Positions 2,028 to 32,723 of a stretch of DNA of 32,723 nt are shown piece after piece. Source of the DNA: Candidatus Omnitrophota bacterium (GTDB lineage Bacteria; Omnitrophota; Gorgyraeia; Duberdicusellales; 4484-171); the NCBI GenBank assembly GCA_023819315.1, contig JAMWBQ010000009.1:1-32723 (forward strand), written 5' to 3'. The first letter of the stretch is position 1. The number at the start of each line of letters is the position of its first letter. Position numbers and translations under genes: made by a program. The notes below the pieces were generated by a model that was given only the letters and a program-made list of their open reading frames with translations, did not search any database and was not told the DNA's origin.

Positions 2028-3724
2028 TTTCTTAATTCCTCTAAACTCATACAGTTCAATAAGTTATCTTTACCTAACCAAGCCCGTCTTGCTAAACTTA
2101 CTCCTAAATTTATTAAATGTAACTGTTCTAATATATGCGCATCTGTACCTAAAGCTAATTTAATACCTGCTTCCTTTGCTCTCAAAGCATCTATATCGTT
2201 CAAATCTAATCTTTGATGATAACAATTAATCTCTAAAGCTACACGGTAATCTCTGGCTACCTTGAAAATTTCATCTAAATCTACATCGTAAGGTTCTCTT
2301 ACCCCCCATAATCTTCCTGTGGGATGAGCAATAATATTGACATACTTATTCTTACACGCAGAAATAATCCTTTTAGTAATAACCTCTTTTGACTGTTTAA
2401 ACCCGGTATGAATAGCAGCAATGACTATATCTAATTCCTTAAGAATGCTATCAGGATAATCTAACTTACCATCACTAAGTATATCTACCTCTGCTCCACA
2501 AAGAACAGTTACTGTTTTCAACTTCCGGTTAATCTTCCTTATCGTATCTATCTTTTCATAGAGTTTTTCTTTATCTACTCCATGAGCAACCTTTAAAGAT
2601 TGTGAATGGTCACTGATACCTATATACTGATAACCTAAATCTTTAGCTTTTTCTCCAATCGCCTCTAAGGAAGAAGCACCATCGCTGTATATAGAATGGA
2701 CGTGAAAATCACCTTTAATTTGTCCCATCTCTACCAAGTGAGGCAAAGCTTTCTCTAAAGCTAACTCTATCTCTCCTCTATCTTCTCTTAATTCAGGGGG
2801 TATAAACTGCATCTTAAAAAATTCAAATATCTCATCTTCGCTCTTACTAACTAATTTTCTTTCTCCCTTAAATACTCCATATTCGTTTATCTTATAACCC
2901 TTCTTTATCGCATACTGTCGCACTTTGATATTGAACTGTTTAGAACCGGTAAAATACATTAATGCTGAGCCAAAACTATCCTCTTCCACTACTCTCAAAT
3001 CTACTTGGATATTACTCTCTTTAGCCAAAACGCTCGATTTTGTCTCCCCTTTAGCTAAAACCTCTTTCACTAAATCTAAATTTACAAATTTATCCATAAC
3101 TTTTTGAGGATTAGAAGAAACCACAAGAATATCTATATCTCTTATTGTATCCTTGCGTCTCCTTAAGGAGCCGGCTACCTCAATTTCTTTAAACCCTACA
3201 ATTTTTTTTAACTCTTCTATAAACCTATTAGCTGTATTCAATGCCAAATATAGAGGAAGTCGTTCCTTACCTTTTCTAATAATCTCTATACCACGAAGGA
3301 TGTTTTCTTCTGTTTTCTCCTTTATCCTTTCCAAATAATGCAATTTACCATTCTTAGCTGCCTTTTCCAAATCATCTATATTGTCTATCTTAAGTTTCTC
3401 ATAGATCAACTTCACGGTTTTAGGACCTAAACCAGGTATTTCCATCATCTGTAAAATACCTGGGGGAACTTTTTTCTTTAACTCTTCATACTGAGATAAT
3501 GTTCCCGTGGTAATAATCTCACCTATCTTATTAGCTAAATCTTTACCAATACCGGAAATTTCTGTCAATCGATTCTCCTTCCATAGAAGCTCTATATCTT
3601 CAGGAATACTTTCAATATTTTGGGAAGCTCTTTCGTAGGCTCTGATACGAAAAGGATTATCACCTTGAAAATCAAGTATCTTGGCAATGTCACGAAAAAT
3701 TTTAGCGACTTCTTGATTCTTCAT
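2012..3724 (-). CDS. polX: Bacterial family X DNA polymerase with C-terminal PHP domain (PolX)
   Basis: N-terminal HhH/polX domain with GSLRRRKDTIRDIDILV; C-terminal PHP DFHVHSIYSDGASS, GISDHSQSL, GTDAH. Confidence 0.94.
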   Translation of the reverse strand: MKNQEVAKIFRDIAKILDFQGDNPFRIRAYERASQNIESIPEDIELLWKENRLTEISGIGKDLANKIGEIITTGTLSQYEELKKKVPPGILQMMEIPGLGPKTVKLIYEKLKIDNIDDLEKAAKNGKLHYLERIKEKTEENILRGIEIIRKGKERLPLYLALNTANRFIEELKKIVGFKEIEVAGSLRRRKDTIRDIDILVVSSNPQKVMDKFVNLDLVKEVLAKGETKSSVLAKESNIQVDLRVVEEDSFGSALMYFTGSKQFNIKVRQYAIKKGYKINEYGVFKGERKLVSKSEDEIFEFFKMQFIPPELREDRGEIELALEKALPHLVEMGQIKGDFHVHSIYSDGASSLEAIGEKAKDLGYQYIGISDHSQSLKVAHGVDKEKLYEKIDTIRKINRKLKTVTVLCGAEVDILSDGKLDYPDSILKELDIVIAAIHTGFKQSKEVITKRIISACKNKYVNIIAHPTGRLWGVREPYDVDLDEIFKVARDYRVALEINCYHQRLDLNDIDALRAKEAGIKLALGTDAHILEQLHLINLGVSLARRAWLGKDNLLNCMSLEELRKWLKK

Positions 3725-10826: not shown

Positions 10827-10882
10827 CTTAGAATTAAGAATGAGGGAGTATAGAATTACATATAGAAAGAATTAGAGGTGAT

Positions 10883-11161
10883 TTACTTTATCTCTCTCTT
10901 CATTTCTAAACCAGGCTTAAAAACCACTATGTTCTTCTCGGGTAGAGGAATGGTCTCGCCTGTCTTGATATTACGTCCTACTTTAGAACCTCTCTTTTTT
11001 ACTTTAAAAACCCCAAAATTTCTTATCTCCACCCTTTTACCTTCTTTTAGAAATTCAAAAATAGTATTAAAAACCTCCTGAACCACCTCTTTGACTATAG
11101 CTTGTTTTATCCCTGTTTTCTCCTTTATCTTAACTACGATATCCTTCTTGGTCATCACCAA
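10883..11161 (-). CDS. HU/IHF-family DNA-binding protein
   Basis: KRVEIRNFGVFKVKKRGSKVGRNIKTGETIPLPEKNIVVFKPG signature. Confidence 0.95.
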   Translation of the reverse strand: MVMTKKDIVVKIKEKTGIKQAIVKEVVQEVFNTIFEFLKEGKRVEIRNFGVFKVKKRGSKVGRNIKTGETIPLPEKNIVVFKPGLEMKREIK

Positions 11162-11180
11162 AATTTATACCATTGCTAAA

Positions 11181-24505: not shown

Positions 24506-24867
24506 TCTAATTCCTTAATAATAGCAAAAAAAATATCCTGAGCAATATTAGGTTTAGGTAAAAGATACTTTCGACTAGAAACGCGTAGTTTCTGAATATC
24601 AGGTTTAATGGTATAGATCTTTATAGTTATATCAGCATCGGACAATTTTGCTTTAATCAATCCCTTTGATTCTATAGTTTTAATTATCTCTCCTTTCCTT
24701 TCCTCTAATTTACCCATACAGGCATCCCACACATCCCTATAGCTGGCACTAATAAAGCCCGTAGCTGAATCATTACTTAAAACATAACCGGTAACTATCC
24801 CCGTTCCTACTAGCACAGGAGTGCATCCCAAAATTAATATAAATCCCAGCCAAAGTAAATATCTCAT
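24502..24867 (-). CDS. Small lipoprotein, DUF3568-like
   Basis: Lipobox LGC; TGYVLSNDSATGFISASYRDVWDACMGKLEE pattern. Confidence 0.6.
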   Translation of the reverse strand: MRYLLWLGFILILGCTPVLVGTGIVTGYVLSNDSATGFISASYRDVWDACMGKLEERKGEIIKTIESKGLIKAKLSDADITIKIYTIKPDIQKLRVSSRKYLLPKPNIAQDIFFAIIKELE

Positions 24868-25970
24868 TTAAATTTACCCCCTTTAGAATAATGTCTTAAA
24901 AAAAAACTCTCTAAGATTTCTTTGACTATGTAAACATCTCTACTTAAAGCTTCTCCTATACCGAATCTATTCCCTCTAATCCCCAAAATTAGTATATCAA
25001 TACGATTGTATTCTTGCAAGTATTGAATTGCTAATTTTAAAGAAGAATTATGTGTAAAATATAAATTTAAATCATAACTCATCTGGGGAGAAAATAATTT
25101 GAACCGACTATCATCATCGTAGTAGGCACAATCAACAAATACAATCAATCTATTATTTTGATGAGCGAGCTTATCTAAATGATTCTCTAAAGAATTGCCC
25201 GCATCGTAAACTTTAAAAGAAACTTTCTCTTTTAATGAGCTCATTATAAGCGAACCAACACTATCATCTTCACGAATAACATTACCTATACCTACCAAGA
25301 TAAAATTATTTTGATTACTATCTATCTTCTCCTTCAATCTTTCCAGAGTTATACTTTCCTCACCAGATGGGATAAATACATTATAAAATTCCATTTCACC
25401 AACAAGCTGTGGTAGGGAAATAAATTTTATACACCTAAGTCCTAATTTCTTAGCTTCGTTAATTAACTCCTCTCGGTCATCTATATAAACTATACTATCA
25501 AAAGTAGTTTGCGCTTTTTTTCTAAGAACTTCGTAAATTTCTCTTTGGGGCTTAACTGCTTTTACTTCAAAGGAAAGGATTAAATCATCAAAAAAAGAAA
25601 ATATCTCTCCAAAACTATTCTTAAGATGTTCAAAATGAACCTTGTTAATATTGGAAATTAAATAGGTAGGGTAAATTAATCTTGCTCTACGGACCAAATC
25701 TACCATTTCTAACTTAGGAGAGAAAATATTACACCAGATATCTATAAATTCTTCGTATCCTAAATTTGCTTTAAATTTTTTAACAAACTCTTTATAGAAA
25801 TCTTGGCAAGATACTAAACCCCGCTCAAAATCCAAGGTGAAATCCTCATAGAAAAGTGTATGAATAACTCTATCTTGACTTACTCCCAATTTATCCTTTA
25901 TCTTATCTAAACCAATATCGTAATCAAAATCAAATATAACTTTGCCTAAATCAAAAGCTAAACATTTCAT
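24864..25970 (-). CDS. Fusion: HAD-superfamily hydrolase + M52-type hydrogenase maturation protease domain
   Basis: N-domain LAFDLGKVIFDFDYDIGL...LISNINKVHFEHL...VKPQREIYEVL...IVYIDDREELINEAKKLG; C-domain FILVGIGNVIREDDSVGSLIMSSL...VFVDCAYYDD...ILGIRGNRFGIGEALS. Confidence 0.85.
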   Translation of the reverse strand: MKCLAFDLGKVIFDFDYDIGLDKIKDKLGVSQDRVIHTLFYEDFTLDFERGLVSCQDFYKEFVKKFKANLGYEEFIDIWCNIFSPKLEMVDLVRRARLIYPTYLISNINKVHFEHLKNSFGEIFSFFDDLILSFEVKAVKPQREIYEVLRKKAQTTFDSIVYIDDREELINEAKKLGLRCIKFISLPQLVGEMEFYNVFIPSGEESITLERLKEKIDSNQNNFILVGIGNVIREDDSVGSLIMSSLKEKVSFKVYDAGNSLENHLDKLAHQNNRLIVFVDCAYYDDDSRFKLFSPQMSYDLNLYFTHNSSLKLAIQYLQEYNRIDILILGIRGNRFGIGEALSRDVYIVKEILESFFLRHYSKGGKFK

Positions 25971-25987
25971 AATAATTTAATTTCCCC

Positions 25988-26305
25988 CTAATATTTTTTA
26001 TTTCCATGCCGATAGGGTCTTCTCCTATTTTTCTCCATCTTCTTAAGGATTGCTCTCTCTAAGTCTATCCTCTTTCTACCACAGTAATCAAAAATTCTTA
26101 TACAACAATCAGCTAACTCTTCTGCCACTAATTCTTTAGGTTGACGTTTGCGTAATGCTTCTAAAACCTCGGAAAGTTCCGAATGCATAAGAGCGATTAG
26201 CTCAGCATCGTTACGTGGTTTATCCCACCACCCCTTAGATTTAGCAATAGAGTAACAGTTTGCAATAATCTCTTTTAGAGAAATTTTATCTTTTACCTTC
26301 TTCAT
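25988..26305 (-). CDS. MazG-like nucleotide pyrophosphohydrolase
   Basis: ALMHSELSEVLEALRK...LAEELADCCIRIFDYC (EExxE/ExxD-type) motif. Confidence 0.85.
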   Translation of the reverse strand: MKKVKDKISLKEIIANCYSIAKSKGWWDKPRNDAELIALMHSELSEVLEALRKRQPKELVAEELADCCIRIFDYCGRKRIDLERAILKKMEKNRRRPYRHGNKKY

Positions 26306-26320
26306 TTATTTAGATAATCT

Positions 26321-26923
26321 TTAAGAAGTAATTACCAATTTTCTCCTACAATGAGGGCAGACAATACGGAACCGATCGTAACGAAGAATCTTTTCTTCTC
26401 CCTTACCCACATCGTCTCTTACTAATAGTTCTTTTTGGTGAAGAGAGATTAGGGAGGTATTAGAAACAAAAAGAGGCCCTAACTTATTTATTGTCCAAAA
26501 AATATGCTCTGAAGTTACAATTGGTTACTCACATATTTCGCAAACAAACAATTCCTTTTCAATTCTCTGAAAGAGTTGTTCCCTATTCTCCGTAACAGAA
26601 ATATCAAATTCGTTAGAAAGAATTATACCCTTCTCGGTCAAACAATGAAGCTGGCATTGTCCACATTCAATACAGATATCCCATCTAACCTTTAATATCC
26701 TTTTATATCCGGAGCCGCTCTTTACATCTTTAAAACTCAATGCTCCTGTAGGACATACATTTACACAAGCAGTGCAACCTACACAATCTTCTTCATAAAA
26801 GTATGGTTTACCCCTAAAAGAAGGATAAGGGATATGCTTTTGATGAGGAAATTTTGTGGTATAGGGTTTGCTCAACAAAGCCCTTATTGCTTCTTTTATC
26901 TCTCTCAGTTTAGGATACTTCAT
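26321..26923 (-). pseudogene. Group 4 hydrogenase/Mbh ferredoxin-like 2x[4Fe-4S] subunit, interrupted by in-frame TAA (26525-26527)
   Basis: ORF 26525-26923 carries CVGCTACVNVCP and CIECGQCQLHC, ends FVCEICE*. The same frame runs 67 more codons: PIVTSEHIFWTINKLGPLFVSNTSLISLHQKELLVRDDVGKGEEKILRYDRFRIVCPHCRRKLVITS*. May be sequencing error, nonsense mutation or readthrough. Confidence 0.8.
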
Positions 26924-26929
26924 ACAAAA

Positions 26930-27262
26930 CTAAACTTTATTCTTCTGGGAATAAAAATCGCATTTACTTTTCTCCCAAAGTTTTATTCCTCCCTTATAGG
27001 AAGCTCTTGCCAATGCATGGGAAGCGGTAGGAGAAGTAAGCAAAACAAAAATTAATGCAAGTATACACTTTATACCTGTAGGATTAAATCCTACCATCAC
27101 GTATGTACCAAAAAGAATACTTGCTGTTCCAAAAGTAACACATTTAGTAGATGCCTGAAGACGATTATATACATCAGGAAAACGCACTAATCCCAAACAA
27201 CCTAAGAAATCAAAAACTAACCCCATAACTATGAAAATTATGCCTATTACCTCAATCATCAA
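26930..27262 (-). CDS. Mrp/Mnh antiporter subunit G-like
   Basis: IGIIFIVMGLVFDFLGCLGLVRFPDVYNRLQASTKCVTFGT signature. Confidence 0.92.
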   Translation of the reverse strand: MMIEVIGIIFIVMGLVFDFLGCLGLVRFPDVYNRLQASTKCVTFGTASILFGTYVMVGFNPTGIKCILALIFVLLTSPTASHALARASYKGGIKLWEKSKCDFYSQKNKV

Positions 27263-27617
27263 AATCCTTACCTTCTAAAAATTTTGCTAACGCTAAAGTA
27301 GAAATAAAACTCTGTAATGCCCAGGCAATCCCTATATCTATATACCAGTTACGTTTAGTAGAAATAGTTAAAAGAGCACATATACCTAAGATTAAAATTC
27401 CTAACATATCTATACTAACAATTCTATCCGAGGCAGTAGGACCTCTAAAGATACGGAATAAACAGAAAAACGCACTTATTATAATTATCCCTATCCCTCG
27501 TTTCAATAGCCCTAAATAGGAAAGTTTGGGATAAATGAGCATCTCTAAAGGTAAAAATACCACTACTACCAAAAGAGAAACGATAAGGATTAAACCTAAA
27601 AAATATCTTAACTTCAT
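27252..27617 (-). CDS. Mrp/Mnh antiporter subunit F-like
   Basis: FRIFRGPTASDRIVSIDMLGILILG signature. Confidence 0.92.
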   Translation of the reverse strand: MKLRYFLGLILIVSLLVVVVFLPLEMLIYPKLSYLGLLKRGIGIIIISAFFCLFRIFRGPTASDRIVSIDMLGILILGICALLTISTKRNWYIDIGIAWALQSFISTLALAKFLEGKDFDD

Positions 27618-28111
27618 TATTCAAATATTTTTTTTAGAATCCTCTCAAACCTCTTCACAATCATCTCTGTAGCTTTCTCTACATCGGTTGTCTTTACATC
27701 AATCCAATGGATATACAAGCACCCCTTCTCTTTATCTATATCCACAGTTAATGTTCCGGGAGTTAAAGTGATTGAATTGGCTAAGAAGGTTAAAGCAGTA
27801 TCATTCCTTAAGGTTGTTTCTACTTTTACAATCCCGGGATTTAAAGGCTTATTAGGGTGAATAACTCTTAAAGCCACATCTATATTAGACTTAAAACACT
27901 CCCATAAGAATAGAGGTATGTAATATAAAAACCAGAAATATCGCTGAGGATGAAAGAAAAGATTGGGTCTCTGTGTGAATAGTTCACCTGTTAAGTAAGC
28001 AACAAAACCTGATACAATTAACCCTATTATTAAATGCTGCCAATCTAAAGAACCGGTAAGCAAAAGCCACACTATAAATCCCAAAATTAATAGGATCGTT
28101 CTACTTTTCAT
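27617..28111 (-). CDS. Mrp/Mnh antiporter subunit E-like
   Basis: VALRVIHPNKPLNPGIVKVETTLRNDTALTFLANSITLTPGTLTVDI. Confidence 0.95.
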   Translation of the reverse strand: MKSRTILLILGFIVWLLLTGSLDWQHLIIGLIVSGFVAYLTGELFTQRPNLFFHPQRYFWFLYYIPLFLWECFKSNIDVALRVIHPNKPLNPGIVKVETTLRNDTALTFLANSITLTPGTLTVDIDKEKGCLYIHWIDVKTTDVEKATEMIVKRFERILKKIFE

Positions 28112-29597
28112 TGTTTATACTCTGGTTTATATTCTTGTAATCTAACCCCCCCAAAATAACTTTTTGTGCTGGCAAAAGAAAATAATTGTTTAAATAGGGG
28201 ATAAGCATACCCCCACTTAAAATACAGATAATAGCTAAAATTACCATCGCAGTTCTCATAAAAATGGGCACCTCTTTAACCTCTTTGTATAAACTATTTA
28301 ATTTGCCCAAGAAAGCAAATTTTTGCACCTTCATAAAGGAAGAAAGAGTAAGGATACTACCAATAATTGCCCAAATAGCATAACCAATATATCCCTTTTC
28401 CATACACGCAATAATAATTAAAAGCTTACTAAAAAAACCATTGAACGGAGGTATACCTGAAATACTTAAAGAAGCAATTAAAGATGTCCATCCCGTCAGA
28501 GGCATATTCTTACGTAAACCTCCCATCTTAGAAAGATCTCTTGTTCCTATAGTGTACTCTATTGCTCCTGAATTAAGAAAAAGTAAAGATTTAAATACTG
28601 AATGATTAAATAGATGGAATAGTCCACCTAAAACACCTAAAGGTGTACCTAAACCAATGCCCAATATTATATACCCAATTTGACTTATAGAATGATAGGC
28701 TAACAGCCGCTTAATATCCATCTGAGTAATAGCCAGGATCACTCCTACCATTATAGATAAAACTCCTAAGAACATAAGGATATCAAGAAAAATCTGATTT
28801 ACTCCTAAAAGATTATAGAAAATTCTTAAAAGTAAATATACTCCTAAAGTTTTAATAAGCACTCCTGATAAGGTTGCCGAGATAGGTGCAGGTGCAGAAG
28901 GATGGGCATCAGGCAACCAAGCATGAAAAGGCACAATAGCAGATTTTAATCCTACCCCTAAGAAAAATAAAACTGCAGAAAATATCACTACCGGCACTAT
29001 CCCCTTCTCCCAGAGAACCACTCCCATATCAGCAATATTTAATGTAGAAGTGTAAGAATATAAGAGAGCGATACCTAAAAGAATACATAGAGAAGCAAAC
29101 GAACTCATTACTAAATATTTAAAAGAAGCTTCTAACTCTTCTGCTTCTACACCATAAGCTACCAAAGCATAACTTGCCACGGAAGCAATCTCTAAGAAAA
29201 CAAATACATTAAAAATATCTCCACTGATAAGCAAACCGTTCATACCGGCAAGCATAAAAAGAAACAAAGTATAGAACTTATACTTAGAAGTGAACTTTTC
29301 CATATAATTTACAGAAAAAAGAGTAATCGTCCAAGCAATAAAATTAACTGTAATTAACATAAACCTTGTTAATCCATCTATAACTAAAGTTATCCCCCAA
29401 GGAGGTAACCATCCTCCCACCTTATACAATAGAGGCTCAAATGGCTTAAAAAACAATATAAACAAAGACAACAAGAATAAAACAAAAGTAGTAATATTAG
29501 CAAAGATATCGGTAAAAAATTTAGAGTGCCTTCCTACCAAGTATATAATAAATGCTCCCGAAAGAGGAAGAATAGTAAAAAAAGGAATAATTACCAT
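28101..29597 (-). CDS. Mrp/Mnh subunit D-like proton-conducting membrane subunit
   Basis: KSAIVPFHAWLPDAHPSAPAPISATLSGVLIKTLGVYLLLR, KRLLAYHSISQIGYIILG, GIPPFNGFFSK. Confidence 0.95.
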   Translation of the reverse strand: MVIIPFFTILPLSGAFIIYLVGRHSKFFTDIFANITTFVLFLLSLFILFFKPFEPLLYKVGGWLPPWGITLVIDGLTRFMLITVNFIAWTITLFSVNYMEKFTSKYKFYTLFLFMLAGMNGLLISGDIFNVFVFLEIASVASYALVAYGVEAEELEASFKYLVMSSFASLCILLGIALLYSYTSTLNIADMGVVLWEKGIVPVVIFSAVLFFLGVGLKSAIVPFHAWLPDAHPSAPAPISATLSGVLIKTLGVYLLLRIFYNLLGVNQIFLDILMFLGVLSIMVGVILAITQMDIKRLLAYHSISQIGYIILGIGLGTPLGVLGGLFHLFNHSVFKSLLFLNSGAIEYTIGTRDLSKMGGLRKNMPLTGWTSLIASLSISGIPPFNGFFSKLLIIIACMEKGYIGYAIWAIIGSILTLSSFMKVQKFAFLGKLNSLYKEVKEVPIFMRTAMVILAIICILSGGMLIPYLNNYFLLPAQKVILGGLDYKNINQSINNEK

Positions 29598-29598
29598 A

Positions 29599-29949
29599 TT
29601 AACCTTTCAGTTTACTAATTTTGGTTATATCGAATGTGCCATACTTTTCGTATATTCTTATAGCAATCCCTACAACCAATGCTGTGGTAGCTAAACCGAT
29701 AACTATTGATGTTAGAACTAAAGCTTGCGGAAGAGGGTCAACCATATCAAGGATTGATTGGTCAGGTGAATATAGAGGAGAACGTCCACCCATCTTATAT
29801 CCTACAAGAACTAAAAAAAGATTAGCTGCATACTCGCATATCACCAAACCAATAATTATTTTAATAATGTTTCTCTTCCGCAGAACTCCGTACAGCCCCA
29901 CGCAAAAGAAAACTAAACACAAAAAATATGGTAGATAACTATTATTCAT
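29599..29949 (-). CDS. Mrp/Mnh subunit C-like (NuoK-like)
   Basis: YAANLFLVLVGY...DPLPQALVLTSIVIGLATTALVV. Confidence 0.95.
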   Translation of the reverse strand: MNNSYLPYFLCLVFFCVGLYGVLRKRNIIKIIIGLVICEYAANLFLVLVGYKMGGRSPLYSPDQSILDMVDPLPQALVLTSIVIGLATTALVVGIAIRIYEKYGTFDITKISKLKG

Positions 29950-30412
29950 CTTTAGAAGTAAACTTTAACAATATCAACACTAAAAATATTCCAAATAATC
30001 CCAATCCTACCTTTAAAGCAATAGCGATATTAGAGAAAATTATACTTCCTGCAGAGAATAACTCAAATGGTTTACCTTTGCTAAACCAATCTAAGAAGAA
30101 GTATCCTCCCATAAACCCTAAAATAGCGATACCCAAAAACAAGAGAGCGCCTACACTCTCTAAAACTGATATAAATGTTTTAGGTAAAATTCTCAAGGCC
30201 TCTTCTCTTCCAAAAGCAAGCATAAGATGGATAAAAGATATCGCAACAATTACTCCTCCTGCAAATCCTCCTCCTGGAGAGATATGGCCATGGAGGGTAA
30301 TATATAATCCATAGAGAAGAATTAATCCTACGGTTAAACCTGTAATTGTCTTTACAATTAATGTCATCCCCTTATCTTTATTATCATAACTCATCTTCTT
30401 CTTTCTCCTCAA
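29942..30412 (-). CDS. Mrp/Mnh subunit B-like (MnhB domain)
   Basis: LYGLYITLHGHISPGGGFAGGVIVA signature. Confidence 0.94.
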   Translation of the reverse strand: MRRKKKMSYDNKDKGMTLIVKTITGLTVGLILLYGLYITLHGHISPGGGFAGGVIVAISFIHLMLAFGREEALRILPKTFISVLESVGALLFLGIAILGFMGGYFFLDWFSKGKPFELFSAGSIIFSNIAIALKVGLGLFGIFLVLILLKFTSKDE

Positions 30413-30929
30413 GTTTTTTCCTACCTTTCTTCCTCATTACTGTCATCACTCCCACCACACTGGCAAAAAGGACAGTTGCCTCTCCTAAAGTATCGTAGGC
30501 TCTAAAATTTAAAATTATAGAAGAAACCAAATTAGCCGATCTAACTAATTCTTTAGCATGATCAAGATAAAATTGGGATATGCGCATAAGAGGATAGCCG
30601 AAGGGGGGTAAATCTTTTATAGCTAAATAACCTAAATAGAGGAAAATTATTATAAAGACAAAAGAAACAATTGTATTAAATACCCATCTACCCGAAGTAG
30701 AGAATGGTAGATCTTTTTTTATAGTAGCTCTAATTAAGATTATTAAACAGAGGATCTCTACTACCAACTGCGTAATTGCTAAATCAGGTGCTTTCAATAT
30801 CAAAAAAACGATACATAAACCTAAACCACTTGCTCCCAATGCCACTACTGCCGAAAGTAAATCTTTTACCTCAAGAGCGATAAGCGCTCCTAAGATCATA
30901 AATATTAAAAGAATATTTAATTCTAACAT
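30384..30929 (-). CDS. Fused MbhD/MbhE-like subunit (DUF4040 + MrpA C-terminal domain)
   Basis: N-half ALGASGLGLCIVFLILKAPDLAITQLVVEILCLIILI; C-half SIILNFRAYDTLGEATVLFASVVGVMTVMR. Confidence 0.9.
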   Translation of the reverse strand: MLELNILLIFMILGALIALEVKDLLSAVVALGASGLGLCIVFLILKAPDLAITQLVVEILCLIILIRATIKKDLPFSTSGRWVFNTIVSFVFIIIFLYLGYLAIKDLPPFGYPLMRISQFYLDHAKELVRSANLVSSIILNFRAYDTLGEATVLFASVVGVMTVMRKKGRKKLEEKEEDEL

Positions 30930-30931
30930 AA

Positions 30932-32557
30932 CTACCTAAAAAATAAATATAATAACCCTAACATCCCTATCAAACACCAAACTAAGTACGTAGGTAAAAC
31001 TCCATTATGAAGGAAACTTAAGAATCTACCTAATAAAAAAATTAATCTCTTGCCTTGATCGTAGATATCAAAATATTTATTCTCTGCACTATTGTAAATT
31101 TTTTTAAGTAAGGATAAATCTTTTATCGTATTGTAAAAATCTTCACTCTTAACCTCATCCTCTAATACTTCTCCTCCTATATAAGATGAACTATAACGAA
31201 TACTTCTTGCGGAAAAGAAGAATAAAATTAAACCCAAAATTATACCTGAAACAATTAAACCTGTAGAAAGAAGTGGTCGCCATAATCCAGAAAAGTAAAT
31301 TTCTCCTACTCCTTTCTCTATGAACTTCAATATCGTAGAGTAGGCAAATAAGCCAAAAATTATACATAGTAAGGATAGGATAAATGGTGGAAAATAGAGA
31401 CTAAAGCCTACCTCTTTAACTATCTTCTTAGGTTTACCTAAAAATACCGAAGAGATAAGTTTTAAGAAAGAAGCTAAAGTCAAACCCGAACCAACCAATG
31501 CCATAACTAAAGATAAAGAGATGGTAACCTTTAGGGTTATAAATGTAGTGTTATTAAATAAATCTAACAAACTCTGATAGATCATCCATTTAGAAACGAA
31601 ACCATTAAAAGGAGGTATTCCTGATATAGAGAAAGAAGCAATCAAGGTAAAGAGAAAGGTAAGAGGCATAAATTTACCAATACCTCCTAAATCCTCTAAT
31701 TCACTGCTCCCGCTTTGCTTCTCTACATTACCGGCACATAAGAATAAGCAAGATTTATAAATGGCGTGATTAACCATATGGAATAACCCTGAAGCTAAAC
31801 CTAAAGATGTTGCTGAAGTTATCCCCAAAATCATATAACCCACTTGAGAAACAGCATGGTAGCCCAATAGTCTTTTTATATTATGCTGAATCAATGCCAT
31901 CATTACAGCAAAAATTACCGTTGATGAGCCTATAATGAGAAGAAAAATTTTTGCCCAATTATCTAAAATAAATGTATCCTTCACTATTCTTGCTAATAGA
32001 TATATCCCTAAAAGTTTATCCAAAGAAGCTGGTAAATAAGCTACCACTGGTACAGTAGTATCTTTAGCTACATCGGGTATCCAAGTATGTAAGGGTATAG
32101 CACCTGCTTTAGCAAAACAACCAAGAGCAATAAAGATAAAAGATAAAAGAGCTAACCCATTGTTTATTATCAAAGGTTGTTTGTCAACATAGAGATTAAA
32201 CGATAGCGAGGAAGTTAAATATGCATATAAAATAAACCCTAAGAGCATAAGTCCATCGCTACCACCTACAATAATAAAAGTCTTTTTTGCCGTAGATGAA
32301 GCATCATCGGACAGGTTTATTAATTGAAAAAGAGTAAAACCTAAGAAACCCCATAAACTGATAACGATCCATACATTTCTTGTGAAAACTACTCCTATGC
32401 TTAAAATACCTGTGATCAAAAACCAGAAGTAATAGGAAAACTTTCTCTCTTTGATGTAGCCAAACGAATAGATAAGAATAATCAAAATGAAGAAAGAGAT
32501 AAAAGTTGCTACCAACTTAGATAAGTTATCTAAAATAAACAAATCACTTATTATCAT
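30932..32557 (-). CDS. NuoL/MrpA-N-like proton-conducting membrane subunit with C-terminal extension
   Basis: KAGAIPLHTWIPDVAKDTTVPVVAYLPASLDKLLGIYLLAR, KRLLGYHAVSQVGYMILG, GIPPFNGFVSKW; extra C-terminal HNGVLPTYLVWCLIGMLGLLYLFF. Confidence 0.93.
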   Translation of the reverse strand: MIISDLFILDNLSKLVATFISFFILIILIYSFGYIKERKFSYYFWFLITGILSIGVVFTRNVWIVISLWGFLGFTLFQLINLSDDASSTAKKTFIIVGGSDGLMLLGFILYAYLTSSLSFNLYVDKQPLIINNGLALLSFIFIALGCFAKAGAIPLHTWIPDVAKDTTVPVVAYLPASLDKLLGIYLLARIVKDTFILDNWAKIFLLIIGSSTVIFAVMMALIQHNIKRLLGYHAVSQVGYMILGITSATSLGLASGLFHMVNHAIYKSCLFLCAGNVEKQSGSSELEDLGGIGKFMPLTFLFTLIASFSISGIPPFNGFVSKWMIYQSLLDLFNNTTFITLKVTISLSLVMALVGSGLTLASFLKLISSVFLGKPKKIVKEVGFSLYFPPFILSLLCIIFGLFAYSTILKFIEKGVGEIYFSGLWRPLLSTGLIVSGIILGLILFFFSARSIRYSSSYIGGEVLEDEVKSEDFYNTIKDLSLLKKIYNSAENKYFDIYDQGKRLIFLLGRFLSFLHNGVLPTYLVWCLIGMLGLLYLFFR

Positions 32558-32723
32558 AACTCTCTTTTAGTTTAAAAGTCTTTTGCTGACACAACTTTAT
32601 CAATTCATCACCTTTAAATATTTTTTCTCCTTCTTTAGAGAATGCTACACTCCGTTCGGTGCAACAATAACAAGGGTCAACAGCGGCTAAGATTATTGCT
32701 GCATCGGATATGGTGTATCCGGG
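32544..32723 (-). CDS. Group 4 [NiFe]-hydrogenase large subunit, C-terminal fragment (partial, runs off window)
   Basis: Translation PGYTISDAAIILAAVDPCYCCTERSVAFSKEGEKIFKGDELIKLCQQKTFKLKESYDNK*; DPCxxCTxR C-terminal Ni-ligand motif. Overlaps the next gene by 14 nt. Not in the supplied ORF track. Confidence 0.85.
   Translation of the reverse strand, partial: PGYTISDAAIILAAVDPCYCCTERSVAFSKEGEKIFKGDELIKLCQQKTFKLKESYDNK

Follow-up and report, generated by a model that had tools for sequence, protein, structure and literature searches.

An in-frame TAA divides a HycF-type ferredoxin gene in a putative Mrp-linked [NiFe] hydrogenase operon of an Omnitrophota genome: most probably a local mutation of recent origin or an assembly base error

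Introduction

The closest described counterpart of the gene analyzed here is HycF of the Escherichia coli formate hydrogenlyase (7z0s/7z0t, chain F; PMC9474812), in which a dicluster ferredoxin is followed by a quartet of cysteines arranged as CxxC...CPxC. The quartet of HycF (CxxC-x34-CPxC) holds one metal ion, tentatively assigned as iron, in a peripheral position of the complex, and the C-terminal extension contacts the HycB ferredoxin (PMC9474812). The metal site itself is already known from that complex. In the membrane-bound hydrogenase of Pyrococcus furiosus, an Mrp-linked [NiFe] enzyme, the equivalent subunit is MbhN (6cfw, chain N), a ferredoxin of 139 aa without an extra C-terminal domain. 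Mrp-linked group 4g [NiFe] hydrogenase has also been reported in Omnitrophota (PMC8542988).

The window investigated here is the whole stretch of 32,723 nucleotides from contig JAMWBQ010000009.1 (C191 in our numbering) of assembly GCA_023819315.1, a genome whose relatives, as far as they are named, are for the most part metagenome-assembled genomes of Candidatus Omnitrophota. On its minus strand, a HycF-like gene is interrupted by an in-frame TAA. The interruption most probably goes back to a local mutation of recent date or to a wrong base in the assembly, an ordinary event that calls for no new mechanism.

Results and discussion

Organization of the interrupted gene

The open reading frame at 26525-26923 (minus strand) encodes 132 aa ending with FVCEICE and is closed by a TAA at codon 133 (26525-26527). 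Past this codon, the same frame remains open for 67 codons (26324-26524) up to a second TAA (26321-26323), which is located 15 nt before the ATG of a mazG-like gene at 26305. All these positions agree with the initial annotation, which was also right that no other intergenic gap of the window is as long as the resulting one (219 nt): those next in size measure about 90-95 nt, and the apparently longer one at 10827-11180 was rejected since it carries a real HU gene. A stretch of 67 open codons would arise in random sequence of 31% GC with a probability of about 0.005; the codon-usage score of the tail alone is about zero and uninformative. The argument from random sequence is not needed, however, because the tail is homologous to that of the relatives (see below). 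The region 26321-26923 thus represents one ancestral gene, in which the TAA separates a dicluster ferredoxin of 132 aa from a tail of 67 codons.

The N-terminal 132 codons (26528-26923) belong to a ferredoxin of the HycF/NuoI/MbhN type, with Pfam matches to Fer4_7 (E 8e-11) and Fer4_9. Both 4Fe-4S motifs are present (C47-C50-C53-C57 and C84-C87-C90-C94), and all eight cysteines are invariant in 40 homologues. The best sequence match in the PDB was HycF (7z0s_F, E 5.7e-15), and the same chain ranked first in a Foldseek search (E 2.1e-12, 192 aligned columns) with a predicted structure made for the intact protein of a sister genome (pLDDT 82). The earlier designation as a hydrogenase ferredoxin subunit is borne out. 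The NCBIfam HycF/HyfH models scored below their cut-offs (PRK12387, 80 bits against 204; PRK08222, 78 bits against 270), so the protein is a relative of HycF rather than its equivalog.

The CEIC in front of the stop and the CPHC in the tail (residues 189-192) had been proposed to form one four-cysteine site, with longer relatives carrying such a C-terminal domain. Both suggestions hold in the homologues, where the two motifs are the halves of one conserved quartet (CxxC...CPxC) within a single chain; in the window genome, the quartet is encoded but split by the TAA at codon 133. Hence, the gene is predicted to specify a HycF-type electron-transfer subunit, i.e., a dicluster ferredoxin with a C-terminal Cys-quartet domain, putatively metal binding. 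As opposed to HycF, in which the quartet is whole and its pairs are separated by 34 residues, the window gene has a spacer of 57 and is divided by the stop. The quartet, described as unpredicted in the E. coli formate hydrogenlyase, was invariant or nearly so in HycF-like relatives from several phyla (L032-L111), while the spacer between the two Cys pairs varied among them.

Hydrogenase operon

In a sister genome of the same genus (G001, JAMWDA010000022.1), the operon is complete and comprises an AsrB/HydG-like flavoprotein, a HycB-like ferredoxin, NuoH-, NuoB- and NuoC-like subunits, the large subunit, antiporter-like and MbhD/E subunits, MrpB-G, the HycF-like gene, mazG and a fusion of a HAD domain with a HycI maturation protease. 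The same genes in the window genome are split over two contigs, C185 with the operon start and C191, and the assembly gap between them swallows the small subunit, the NuoC-like subunit and the start of the large subunit. The HycB-like gene is present in both genomes, a trait shared with the HycF system; no FdhF gene was seen in the operon, in contrast to that system, but an AsrB/HydG-like flavoprotein was.

Upstream of the ferredoxin gene, the window contains an Mrp/Mbh antiporter module with all genes intact (26930-32557, minus strand; MrpG, F, E, D, C, B, MbhD/E and an antiporter-like subunit), preceded by the C-terminal part of the large subunit of the [NiFe] hydrogenase (32547-32723, minus strand), which continues past the window, on the far side of a 10-N scaffold gap. 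An apparent frameshift in the large subunit was discarded as an artefact of this gap, placed just beyond the window end (G000:C191:32724-32733). Of the nickel-ligand CxxC motifs, RICGIC and DPCYCC are both found in the sister, whereas in the window genome DPCYCC is present and the N-terminal motif is unassembled. Downstream of the ferredoxin gene are the intact mazG-like gene (25988-26305, minus strand; Pfam MazG, E 1.7e-6), which has the same position in the sister, and a gene in which a HAD-family phosphatase is joined to a HycI-like hydrogenase maturation protease (24864-25970, minus strand). The HAD part was recognized in the window copy, and the scores of the protease domain come from the sister copy (L132:10712-11815; TIGR00072, E 4.3e-17; hycI, E 4.3e-13). 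The location of this fusion directly downstream of the operon supports the hydrogenase context.

Judging from its gene content, the operon would encode an Mrp-linked group 4 [NiFe] hydrogenase. It shares the Mrp linkage and, by its relatives, the phylum with the Omnitrophota group 4g enzyme, the subgroup label being taken from the phylum literature (PMC8542988); the part of that source drawn on here describes no truncation of the ferredoxin. Every assembled gene of the operon is open in the window genome, the HycF-like gene excepted.

The stop site in relatives

The sister HycF-like gene is 200 aa long and has AAG (Lys) at codon 133. It is 92% identical to the window gene over residues 1-132 with no indels, its tail aligns without gaps, and it has the same terminal stop with the same 15-nt spacing to mazG. 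Continuity of homologues across the site had been suggested as a check, and it was found throughout: all 78 homologues that were aligned and have complete reading frames possess a residue at codon 133. They come from Omnitrophota, Elusimicrobia, Bacteroidales, Cloacimonadota and further groups. Since the tail is homologous, gapless in the sister and continuous in all 78, it is genuine coding sequence, and the idea of a frame left open by chance was rejected. The related explanation that the protein belongs to a subfamily of naturally short ferredoxins, for which the existence of tail-less relatives such as MbhN in other complexes could be invoked, has a negligible probability. It is already refuted, as all close relatives have a tail homologous to the downstream frame; every relative examined was full length unless the contig or the match ended first.

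A search for the same stop in related genomes, also advised earlier, returned none besides the window gene itself. Among 246 genomes of the class, 79 had a HycF-like match (81 places, including a few partial matches, none of which has a stop), and an internal stop occurred only in the window genome. In a separate case (L041), a HycF-like gene appears to stop at 161 aa (3483-3501). As the contig ends just 18 nt away, this may be an assembly-edge artefact, and it was not counted as a second truncation.

Age and source of the stop

The open tail had been read in the initial annotation as a sign that the stop is either very recent or an error, and the comparison with relatives agrees with that. 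All invariant tail residues are kept in the window gene, including the cysteines of CPxC, W143, G149, N155, R181 and R184. When the tail changes were polarized with seven outgroups, two fell on the window branch, two on the sister branch, and five were ambiguous. The tail changes somewhat faster than the N-terminal part, and intact close pairs do likewise: for window and sister, the distance ratio of tail to N-terminal part is 1.77 (9/67 against 10/132), a value also covered by the intact pairs (median 1.58). The dN/dS comparison that had been proposed gave 0.45 for the tail and 0.10 upstream against the sister, values based on 15 base differences, with no significant contrast between the two parts in nonsynonymous changes (Fisher p 0.33). 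The idea, suggested by these values, that selection on the tail is relaxed was dropped in view of the few differences, the p-value, the similar behavior of intact pairs and the lack of excess change on the window branch. With key residues kept and no excess change, the stop is either an error or so young that no trace of it has yet built up. Overall, it appears to be recent and confined to the window genome.

Of the two source codons named at the outset, GAA is unlikely. Codon 133 in the outgroups is AAG, AAA, TCT, GCG, GAG, GAA or AGA, and a lysine codon is the likely source of the TAA because AAG is shared by the sister and the closest outgroup, and AAA occurs in one further relative. The TAA differs from the AAG of the sister at two bases, which requires AAA or TAG as an intermediate, while AAA to TAA takes a single base.

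Mutation or consensus error

We favor, with moderate confidence, a nonsense change of recent date, or a strain variant, in this one genome. Its main competitor, which we hold as a tentative but serious possibility, is a base error, or the base of a minor strain, fixed in the consensus; the organism would then really make a full-length 200-aa subunit. Such an error fits the tail without any sign of relaxed constraint and a stop found in no relative, and an intact copy would be expected given that the gene is full length in all relatives. The assembly itself is also of a kind in which it might occur: a fragmented metagenome assembly of 1.88 Mb in 192 contigs, 92.5% complete, with N-filled scaffold gaps. 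However, the 9.6 kb syntenic with the sister contain no other disabling difference, and no other credible interrupted gene was seen in about 182 kb of readable sequence (the window and 20 sampled contigs, three of which consisted of N), so the assembly is not generally error-ridden. Moreover, an error from AAG would have to affect two bases, although only one from AAA. The sole additional candidate in this sample was at L128 (4802-5317), where a 33-codon stretch stays open in the same frame after an ORF, with no early start; it is probably due to chance.

Readthrough, recoding and re-initiation

Regulated or suppressed readthrough, giving a short and a long form of the subunit, had been listed among the options. 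In its favor are the open and conserved tail and the base 3' of the TAA, a C; the initial annotation proposed that TAA followed by C, a relatively weak termination context in E. coli, may act so here. Nevertheless, we consider programmed or suppressed readthrough very improbable. The stop is absent from every relative (one of 81 places class-wide), which leaves no conserved signal, and the scan for promoters and terminators revealed no recoding element. TAA is also the commonest terminator of long genes in the window genome (44 of 83), and none of the 40 tRNAs detected in this 92.5% complete genome reads a stop or has the TTA anticodon. A change of the genetic code with TAA as a sense codon was discarded on similar grounds, there being no suppressor tRNA and no second credible case in the sample. 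Together, the survey of interrupted genes and the tRNA results speak against recoding as well as against a generally error-prone assembly. Slimmer still is the prospect of a lineage-specific leaky TAA that would provide two ferredoxin forms, with and without the docking domain, and so tune which electron donor is accepted.

The open and conserved tail could in principle also be re-initiated as a separate small protein, a scenario that is barely tenable: past the stop, no in-frame ATG, GTG or TTG occurs before the GTG of tail codon 39, which lies deep in the domain, and no promoter-like site for the tail was found in the scan.

Expected consequences of the truncation

Under the favored nonsense change, lysine codon 133 of the HycF-type subunit would have turned into TAA recently and as a single-codon event. 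If the base is real, translation would end at residue 132 and yield a tail-less ferredoxin retaining both [4Fe-4S] clusters; with these kept, electron transfer to the small subunit of the hydrogenase could still take place. By analogy, MbhN shows that a related complex works with a ferredoxin of about this length (139 against 132 aa) and without such a tail, whereas homologues of the window gene normally have one. The truncated product would lack the peripheral metal site. As the operon has a HycB-like gene and the extension of HycF touches HycB in the known structure, the expected defect would be a weaker docking of the input ferredoxin/flavin module. The tail itself would be a very young relic, bound to decay.

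Conclusion

The Cys quartet, unpredicted as it was said to be in the E. coli formate hydrogenlyase, is near-universal in the collected HycF-like proteins of several phyla. Should the stop prove to be an assembly error, the case would be only a caution for annotation. If it is real, the locus would represent a natural experiment in which a poorly understood peripheral Cys-quartet domain has just been removed from a group 4 hydrogenase, with the rest of the operon intact.
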